From Prochlorococcus sp. AG-363-O16 (GTDB taxonomy: Bacteria; Cyanobacteriota; Cyanobacteriia; PCC-6307; Cyanobiaceae): a stretch of DNA of 64,000 bases. The position numbers and the translations under genes were made by a program. Location of the stretch: positions 1 to 64,000 of the forward strand of contig QCGA01000003.1 in the NCBI GenBank assembly GCA_003280095.1, written 5' to 3'. This document shows positions 24,493-60,028 of the stretch, piece by piece (the first letter of the stretch is position 1; every line of letters starts with the position of its first letter). The notes beneath the pieces are model-generated. The model saw only the letters and a program-made list of their open reading frames with translations, ran no database searches and was not told the origin of the DNA.

Positions 24493-24577
24493 GATTTCAA
24501 ATCGGAAGTTTTGATTTTCTCCAAGTAGGTTCCTTTCAGCGTACGGTTTGTTTAGATTAAAGGTAGGTAAGTTATTC

Positions 24578-24670
24578 GTACCACTAGGGGTGCTAGTCAA
24601 AGAAATTATTGACTGGCTGAGATCACACCCTCTGACCTGATCCTGTTAATTCTGGCGAAGGGAAGTGTTG
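24578..24670 (+). ncRNA. TPP riboswitch (THI element) upstream of thiC
   Basis: ACTAGGGGTGC...GGCTGAGATCACACCCTCTGACCTGATCCTGTTAATTCTGGCGAAGGGAAGTG contains the conserved THI-box sequences (GGGGTGC, CTGAGA, ACCTGATC, GCGNAGGGAAG). Confidence 0.96.
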
Positions 24671-24685
24671 AAGCGTGATCTCTGA

Positions 24686-35353: not shown

Positions 35354-35753
35354 GAATGAGGAGAAAGCAGGTCGTAAGCCGGGTTCTGTTCACCAATACT
35401 GGTGGGTGATCATCTATCTGGGACTATCGTTGCCGATAGCCTCTAGCGGCGCATTTCGTTGGAACATGGCAGATGGCCAGCCTATGTCCCTTGGCCTTGC
35501 TCCCTGCCGGGGTTTACCGAGCCAGTACCTCTCGATACTGCTGGTGCGCTCTTACCGCACCTTTGCACCCTTGCCTGTGCTTTAAAGGCCATCGGCGGTG
35601 TGTTTCTGTGGCACTATCCTCACGGTCACCCGCACTGGGCGTTACCCAGCAAGCTGGACCATCGGGGAGCCCGGACTTTCCTCAATACGAAAAAAGATTG
35701 TATTAAAACAGTCTTTTTCGATTGCGATCACCTCTCCTGCTTTCAACCTCCAT
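35354..35753 (-). ncRNA. rnpB: RNase P RNA (M1 RNA, bacterial type A)
   Basis: Minus strand reads ...GAGGAAAGTCCGGGCTCCC... near the 5' end and ...CAGAACCCGGCTTACGACCTGCTTTCTCC at the 3' end, the conserved P4/P1-proximal elements. Ends approximate. Confidence 0.93.
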
Positions 35754-58628: not shown

Positions 58629-59159
58629 TTACACTTCCCCACCCCCAAAGAAGCTTCCAGTTTTTTCGTAAATATATTTCTTCTGACCTTTAATTTTTAT
58701 TCCATATGGATTGGTGAAAATAGCAATTAGTACTCTTAAGAAACTGCATGGATTTCTTCTAATATTTGAGCTTGTTTCGTACACATCCTGAAATTGATTT
58801 CTTGCTGATTCCAAAAGAAGATTGACAGTTTCGGTATTAAGTATTCCTTTTTCTTTGAGAGCAAGAAGTACTTTCTTGCATTCATTTTCTTCAAGGACTA
58901 AAAGCAATCTCTTGAGAGAATTAATTGAACTTTGATTGCCTTTGACTATATCTCTGAGGACACTTTGATATAATATCTCCCACTTGTATGGCTCTTGCCT
59001 GAATAGATCTAATTCGGGCTTATGTAAAGTCTGTTTGTTGACTATAGAAAGACGTAAATAGTTATCTCTTTCTGTTTGTGAGGACTCCCAGAAACCATGC
59101 AACGGAGAACTTTCATTTATCTTTGACGAAATTTTTGAAAGTTGCTTCGAGGAACTCAC
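58629..59159 (-). CDS. hypothetical protein
   Basis: 176 aa ORF in an AT-rich region; no recognised domain. Confidence 0.5.
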   Translation of the reverse strand: MSSSKQLSKISSKINESSPLHGFWESSQTERDNYLRLSIVNKQTLHKPELDLFRQEPYKWEILYQSVLRDIVKGNQSSINSLKRLLLVLEENECKKVLLALKEKGILNTETVNLLLESARNQFQDVYETSSNIRRNPCSFLRVLIAIFTNPYGIKIKGQKKYIYEKTGSFFGGGEV

Positions 59160-59274
59160 CTGTTAATAGCTTTTATTGCTAGGAGTAGTTTCCCATAATT
59201 GCATGAGGTGAGACTGTGCTGGCTTATTTGATTTCAGGGTTCTGTAGGCCTTATTCCATTGTCTAGAGAAATGT

Positions 59275-59342
59275 ATTGGGCGCCTCTGGGGACATTGGGC
59301 GCCCGAGCCTGGGACAAATTGTATCTTTTTTGTCCCGACTCT
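59275..59342. other. tandem GC-rich stem-loops (candidate structured RNA, strand unproven)
   Basis: GGGCGCC (59278-59284) / GGCGCCC (59298-59304), then GGGACAAA (59311-59318) / TTTGTCCC (59329-59336); direct repeat ATTGGGCGCC at 59275 and 59294, in an AT-rich intergenic gap. Confidence 0.5.
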
Positions 59343-59370
59343 ATTGTCTTTCTAAACAGGAGACACGCTT

Positions 59371-59412
59371 ATGGCTGCAGGTAGAAATACCTGTTTTAAG
59401 TTTGTTAGATAG
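59371..59412 (+). CDS. candidate 13-aa micro-ORF MAAGRNTCFKFVR with AGGAG Shine-Dalgarno
   Basis: AGGAG (59358-59362), 8-nt spacer, ATG (59371), TAG (59410-59412); contains CAGGTA-GAAA-TACCTG hairpin followed by TTTT. Confidence 0.25.
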   Translation: MAAGRNTCFKFVR

Positions 59413-59418
59413 ATTGAA

Positions 59419-59649
59419 TTAGCCTATTTCTTTATTGATTGCTTCGGCATAAAAGACTTGTCCATTTGGCGTCATCATTAGTTTGTTCCATTCGCCATCT
59501 TCTGTTTTTAGAGCTACTTCCAAAACTTTTTCTTGGCCTCCGTTAGTAGTCCATTCCCTTACCCACCATTGGTTCTCTTGTTCAAATTGATATCCTCTAG
59601 ACCTTAATAGTGTGCGAATCGTGATTTCTCTGGCAAATGCTGAATCCAT
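59419..59649 (-). CDS. hypothetical protein
   Basis: 76 aa; REITIRTLLRSRGYQFEQENQWWVREWTTNGGQEKVLEVALKTEDGEWNKLMMTPNGQVFYAEAI. Confidence 0.6.
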   Translation of the reverse strand: MDSAFAREITIRTLLRSRGYQFEQENQWWVREWTTNGGQEKVLEVALKTEDGEWNKLMMTPNGQVFYAEAINKEIG

Positions 59650-59676
59650 TTCATTATCTCCTGTACTAACTTATTT

Positions 59677-59871
59677 CTAGACAGGCAAAAGAAGGCCGTC
59701 ATTGGGTAAAACTTCTTCTTTTGGTTTTCTGAGGATGGACCAATGTTGACATGACAGCTTTTTAGCTTCATTAGAAGCTATAGGGCAATTCCAAACTCGA
59801 CAGAAACCTCCTTCCAGTGGGCATCCACCAAAGTTGCGACAATTGGCACAACGAGCACGATTGAAAGGCAT
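59677..59871 (-). CDS. hypothetical Cys-rich small protein
   Basis: 64 aa; RARCANCRNFGGCPLEGGFCRVWNCPIASNEAKKLSCQHW, six Cys. Confidence 0.6.
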   Translation of the reverse strand: MPFNRARCANCRNFGGCPLEGGFCRVWNCPIASNEAKKLSCQHWSILRKPKEEVLPNDGLLLPV

Positions 59872-60028
59872 CTTTAGATGTCGAACTGCCTATTCCATTG
59901 TTAGTCAAATCGTCACCTCTAGTCAGTAGGCATAAGCTACTGTTTGGGAGCGTTCATTGTTCTAAAAACTATCAAGTTTAAAAAACACTAGTTAAATAGG
60001 CTTAAACTGATTAAATTTAATGATTACT

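Follow-up and report, generated by a model that had tools for sequence, protein, structure and literature searches.

The window examined here, 64,000 nucleotides at the start of a contig of Prochlorococcus sp. AG-363-O16, contains what we believe, with a probability of roughly 0.55, to be one copy of a dispersed, non-coding, intergenic family of elements of about 140 nt that belongs to low-light Prochlorococcus. In layout it is a pair of hairpins in a row, with a conserved single-stranded block and a conserved 3' motif behind them. The original prediction for this region, made from the letters alone, had favoured a structured leader that controls a tiny peptide; the conserved structured element, of about 130–140 nt, stands, while the cis-regulated micropeptide does not.

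The tandem GC-rich hairpins, the AGGAG, its spacer and ATG, the CAGGTA hairpin and the TTTT behind it, all described by the original prediction between 59275 and 59412, were each found in the window letters in their place, to the base (Table 1). The limits of the element are different from those first proposed, since it starts at about 59268 and the covariance model match ends at 59402. Its left end motif, CATGAAGA as a rule in the family, is degenerate in the window copy. The segment 59265–59412 folds with −51 kcal/mol compared to −37.5 ± 4.0 in 200 shuffles that preserve dinucleotides (z = −3.35), and 0 of the 200 shuffles reached so good a value.

Table 1 Features of the element copy in the window, and other RNAs of the same window.
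Feature	Position	Strand	Details
Two-hairpin element copy	59268..59402	.	covariance model match 59277-59402, R2 78.7 bits, E 7.3e-15; alignments A4, A5
Hairpin 1, GGGCGCC-13 nt-GGCGCCC	59277..59305	.	arms 59278-59284 and 59298-59304; helix 1 pair changes; RNAalifold
Hairpin 2, outer GAG(UC)/GACUC, inner GGGAC/GUCCC	59305..59341	.	helices 2 and 3; outer pairing GAG 59305-59307 / CTC 59339-59341; inner arms GGGACAAA 59311-59318, 10 nt, TTTGTCCC 59329-59336
Conserved unpaired block TTTCTAAACAG, family TTCTA[AG].CA	59348..59359	.	A4 columns TCTAA/TCTAG
AGGAG	59358..59362		8-nt spacer, then ATG
Micro-ORF MAAGRNTCFKFVR	59371..59412	+	present, from ATG 59371 to TAG 59412; no conservation of start codon, SD or frame
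3' end motif CAGGTAGAAATACCTGTTTT, family about [AG]AGTAnAAACACCT[GC]TTTT	59378..59397	.	perfect hairpin private to the window copy
Hairpin CAGGTA-GAAA-TACCTG	59378..59393		TTTT directly after
Weak match, similar to a degenerate second copy (3' half)	59665..59727	+	R2 28.6 bits, E 0.00235 (own genome)
TPP riboswitch	24576..24680	+	above gathering score
RNase P RNA, class A	35359..35744	-

The weak match downstream overlaps a 64-aa Cys-rich ORF (59677-59871, minus strand) at its 3' end, and a 50-aa Cys-rich ORF of similar type is bracketed by two full copies of the element in Prochlorococcus sp. AG-409-O23. We considered whether the element is the leader of a divergent Cys-rich ORF and rejected this, as the ATG that stands beside hairpin 1 in one genus opens no conserved ORF.

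The family was built up from a single relative. A blastn search of the window against 400 genomes of the family Cyanobiaceae returned one convincing match, in Prochlorococcus sp. AG-409-O23 (G012), where 27 nt spanning hairpin 1 are identical. Alignment of the two shows that the likeness extends through hairpin 2, which is altered on both of its sides, and through the TAAACAG block, and that the ATG is not common to them. The loop pattern alone was abandoned as a query, its matches being mostly due to chance. A covariance model made of these two copies (R1) detected the element in G013 (E 6.5e-10) and, as several copies apiece, in three genomes of genus g30; with a second model of 17 copies (R2) it was detected in 96 of the 360 genomes and in 36 of the 59 genera of the family, with 1–10 copies per genome. 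Ten genomes scored in depth with R2 hold 2–10 copies each. Copy number reaches 10 in G071 and eight in both G030 and G119, and the window's own genome (G000) has six. The genomes which we take to be SS120, MIT9211, NATL2A and MIT9313 carry 3, 4, 2 and 10 copies, respectively. On C1 of G071 the copies lie at 334077, 535594, 1005147, 1009976, 1017656, 1043464, 1062647, 1661288, 1667790 and 1797836, and on C1 of G109 at 384010 and 1591320. In copies of genus g56 (L305–L309, L460) the loop of hairpin 2 is much enlarged, and the whole element measures 165–178 nt.

R2 found no element at E ≤ 0.05 in the high-light-type genus g18, presumed to include MIT9312, and none at that threshold, with lax filters, in 20 of 21 presumed Synechococcus genomes, a clade that may be too distant for this model. 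The matches in these 21 genomes were one of 27.9 bits at E ≤ 0.05 in G010 and one at E 1.2. The former (L461, 1501-1623) is a possible distant homolog with the 3' motif ATGAGTAAAAAAACC, and is the sole such match at E ≤ 0.05 in any model run. A viral origin was also considered and set aside: no copy was present in IMG/VR or phage records, and five pattern matches fail as elements by R2.

The element matches no family in Rfam. Rfam 15 gave nothing over it in the window at gathering score, nothing in 59000–60000 up to E 5, and nothing in six other copy-bearing loci up to E 3. The glnA, Downstream-peptide and Yfr families present in Rfam were included in this search and none fits, consistent with the earlier view that the region is not one of the cyanobacterial glutamine motifs.

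The compensatory changes in relatives that would be expected of a conserved structure are present in large number. In a model-fitted alignment of 86 copies, which are not independent of one another, 17 of the 18 base pairs are doubly compensated at least once, 94.2% of cells are paired (76.4% in shuffles, and 41–51% when one arm is slid by 1–3 columns), 239 cells carry double changes compared to 77 in shuffles, and the covariation score is 0.400 versus 0.131. Double changes occur at all nine pairs of helix 1, where 96% of cells are paired, and at eight of the nine pairs of helices 2 and 3. The 5' arm of hairpin 1 reads GGGGGACG, GGGCGGG, GGGCACC or AAGGGGGCGA in relatives, and the 3' arms match. 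RNAalifold, applied to a structure-free MAFFT alignment of 14 divergent copies, recovered hairpin 1, four of whose pairs are double-changed, but missed hairpin 2, apparently as a result of misalignment by MAFFT. Hairpin 2 is evident on inspection by eye: it changes from GAGUC/GACUC to GAGAC/GUCUC in L270, and its inner helix, which elsewhere reads AGGAC/GUCCU, AGCAC/GUGCU or AGCUC/GAGCU, passes among copies from the first of these to the second and the third. The structure is confined to the element, with a mean fold z across the family of −3.2, compared to −0.8 for the left flank and −0.2 for the right flank. The mean folding energy is the same on both strands. Wobble pairs were tried as an indicator of the strand and discarded, since the excess on the minus strand is gone once alignment slips are removed and most A-C cells are such slips.

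The ends of the element are defined by the extent of conservation. On the left it breaks off sharply at a motif close to RCATKAAGA, about 9 nt before hairpin 1, and on the right it ends after ACCT[GC]TTTT. Clustering of the flanks reveals independent assortment of the neighbours on the two sides. In G071, four copies have a left flank in common and different right sides, and two copies are 99% identical over 720 nt of right flank but have different left sides. Direct duplications comprise the left flank together with the element: 246 bp at 99.6% in G084, 321 bp at 91% in G022 and 431 bp at 98% in G000. The last of these, in the window's own genome, are direct repeats at 1761-2191 and 5349-5779 of L322 (G000:C21), each with an element, and some 3.2 kb of accessory genes lie between them.

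A lineage-specific gain of the element is seen between two core genes: a 147-aa ORF and pdhC are 75–82 nt apart in 12 genera, whereas in G027 the distance is 319 nt and includes the element. This gain may be part of a larger replacement, as the spacer differs beyond the element too. Neither a target-site duplication nor a clean empty site was found at the loci compared. A candidate empty site at the MTIQKPFH gene was rejected because the orthologous spacers are too diverged, and at a second locus, in the SS120-type genus, the partners lie apart, rearranged, and form no empty site. At a locus common to several genera, identity is 91% for the element, 72% and 81% for the flanking spacers and 92% for the adjacent gene. 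Copies from different genera intermingle in the tree, and several subfamilies occur within individual genomes.

The sharp ends, the exchange of neighbours and the gain together point to dispersal or recombination, and the conserved unpaired blocks with their high conservation suggest that the element is recognised by something, at the level of RNA or of DNA. Since a pure selfish repeat needs neither sequence-specific unpaired blocks nor conservation at the level of coding sequence, we argue for an RNA function on top of dispersal. We propose that the element would act as a folded single strand, either as RNA made by read-through from adjoining genes or as single-stranded DNA; that it may spread as a non-autonomous repeat, via copying or recombination; and that its copies could form junctions that join accessory genes in new orders, like ERIC/IRU or REP repeats elsewhere. 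Shuffling of neighbours at both ends is equally expected from ordinary homologous recombination between repeats, without transposition. A bolder form of the proposal, in which this is an unreported mobile or recombining element whose fold is recognised by a protein that joins accessory genes in new orders, amounting to cassette shuffling without an integron that was lost in the high-light lineage, seems to us unlikely.

Among known repeats, the ERIC/IRU sequences, dispersed intergenic imperfect hairpins of about 130–140 bp that are multi-copy and non-coding, are close in layout. The element resembles them in its length, its imperfect hairpins, its intergenic position, its copy number, its non-coding nature and in not being tied to one neighbour gene. 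The comparison is one of layout, not of sequence, and it has limits: ERIC/IRU is one long imperfect palindrome, whereas the element has two hairpins and a conserved unpaired 3' half, and no TA duplication was seen at the element. The REP/RAYT systems (GTAG and CGTC repeats) are likewise short palindromic intergenic repeats, and RAYT genes occur in the genus richest in element copies. REPs, however, measure 20–40 bp and carry a fixed tetranucleotide tag (PMC3733652), and most element-bearing genera are without RAYT. G030, G071 and G119, all of genus g30, have 4–8 RAYT (PF01797) matches each, some of them 1–3 kb from a copy. These make up the 3 of 10 element-bearing genomes with such a match, in one genus of the seven tested, and none was found in the six other genera; RAYT was therefore rejected as the mobiliser, being confined to one of seven genera.

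The strongest alternative, which we consider possible though doubtful, is that the copies are a multi-copy family of trans-acting sRNAs, each with its own promoter, perhaps the Prochlorococcus clade of Yfr103 or one of Yfr106–108. Such genes would agree with the conserved fold and unpaired blocks, with the T-run at the 3' end of many copies and with the frequent duplication of the left flank together with the element. However, no −10-like site keeps a constant distance from the element, on one strand or the other, and the 3' end forms no conserved hairpin, the last 45 nt of 78 copies having a mean z of only −0.67. Neither a conserved promoter nor a terminator hairpin, as expected of a self-contained sRNA gene, was thus found across copies, and the embedded terminator hairpin proposed for the window copy does not hold for the family. 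The strains reported for Yfr103 resemble our presumed positive strains, with 3, 2 and 10 copies in the genomes presumed to be SS120, NATL2A and MIT9313, and both families are multi-copy with a conserved secondary structure. Yfr103 comprises seven structured and highly expressed paralogs of 290–328 nt in Synechococcus CC9605, with homologs in Prochlorococcus SS120, NATL1A/2A, MIT9303 and MIT9313 (Hou et al., PMC5069720). This length stands against the approximately 140 nt of structure and conservation observed here, and Yfr103 is widespread in Synechococcus, in contrast to the one distant R2 match that the 21 presumed Synechococcus genomes gave at E ≤ 0.05. The genome presumed to be MIT9211 has four copies, yet that strain is not in the published list for Yfr103.

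Yfr103 was also sought in an 800-kb portion of a presumed Synechococcus genome, where the repeats turned out to be arrays of Nif11-like peptide genes and not the element. Arrays of Nif11/prochlorosin-like peptide genes were seen as well at L221, L222 and L281 of G071 and at 345-353, 595-599 and 789-796 kb of G140, and several element copies in G071 adjoin such arrays. Yfr106–108 are sRNAs of NATL2A with low-light homologs and predicted conserved structures (Lott et al., PMC7368042), a likeness by description only, and their copy number is not reported in that study. The element is set apart from Yfr103 by description as well, on the grounds of length, host range and the missing promoter; our main doubt about novelty is that some copies may overlap one of these named sRNAs.

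It is improbable, in our judgement, that the element is a cis-acting 3'UTR or transcription-termination module at gene ends, acting mainly on the strand opposite to that first proposed. The right end does tend to face the 3' end of the neighbour gene (36 versus 15, counting ORFs of 85 aa or more up to 500 nt away), it sometimes lies within 20 nt of the stop codon, and read on the minus strand the element offers the GC-rich hairpin 1 followed by pyrimidine-rich UUCUUC. Part of this bias, however, stems from one orthologous locus, and the left side has none; the end motif is a fixed sequence and not a U tract, a neighbouring gene at the shared locus has a terminator hairpin of its own, and neither the corrected wobble pairs nor the folding energies favour a strand.

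Still less likely is an attC-like site for the site-specific recombination of gene cassettes, recombined as folded single-stranded DNA. Copies in the same orientation bracket 2–6 kb of accessory genes in several genomes, and the independent partners on the two sides, with breakpoints at the element ends, would suit such a site. On the other hand, the duplications reach beyond the element, and by inspection its left and right end motifs are not complementary, so that the element as a whole does not fold into a single attC-type hairpin.

A structured leader controlling a micropeptide is highly improbable, despite the well-spaced AGGAG and ATG of the window copy and a 3' motif that often reads N-T-C/S-F in one frame, because relatives are without the ATG and the AGGAG, roughly one copy in two has no start in that frame, many have in-frame stops just upstream of the motif, and orthologues differ by indels of 1 or 2 nt. 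With no conserved ORF and with frameshifts between orthologous copies, the element is, judged by its sequence, non-coding, and we regard the micro-ORF and the third hairpin of the window copy as incidental, probably chance features.

For the streamlined genomes of Prochlorococcus, a structured repeat with up to ten copies and conservation at the level of coding sequence at one shared locus is unexpected. The element sits at junctions between island genes that have been combined in varying order, and the high-light-type genomes, which are without it, offer a natural comparison. Since copies are present in cultured strains (presumably MIT9313, SS120, NATL2A and MIT9211), both the expression and the mobility of the element are directly testable.
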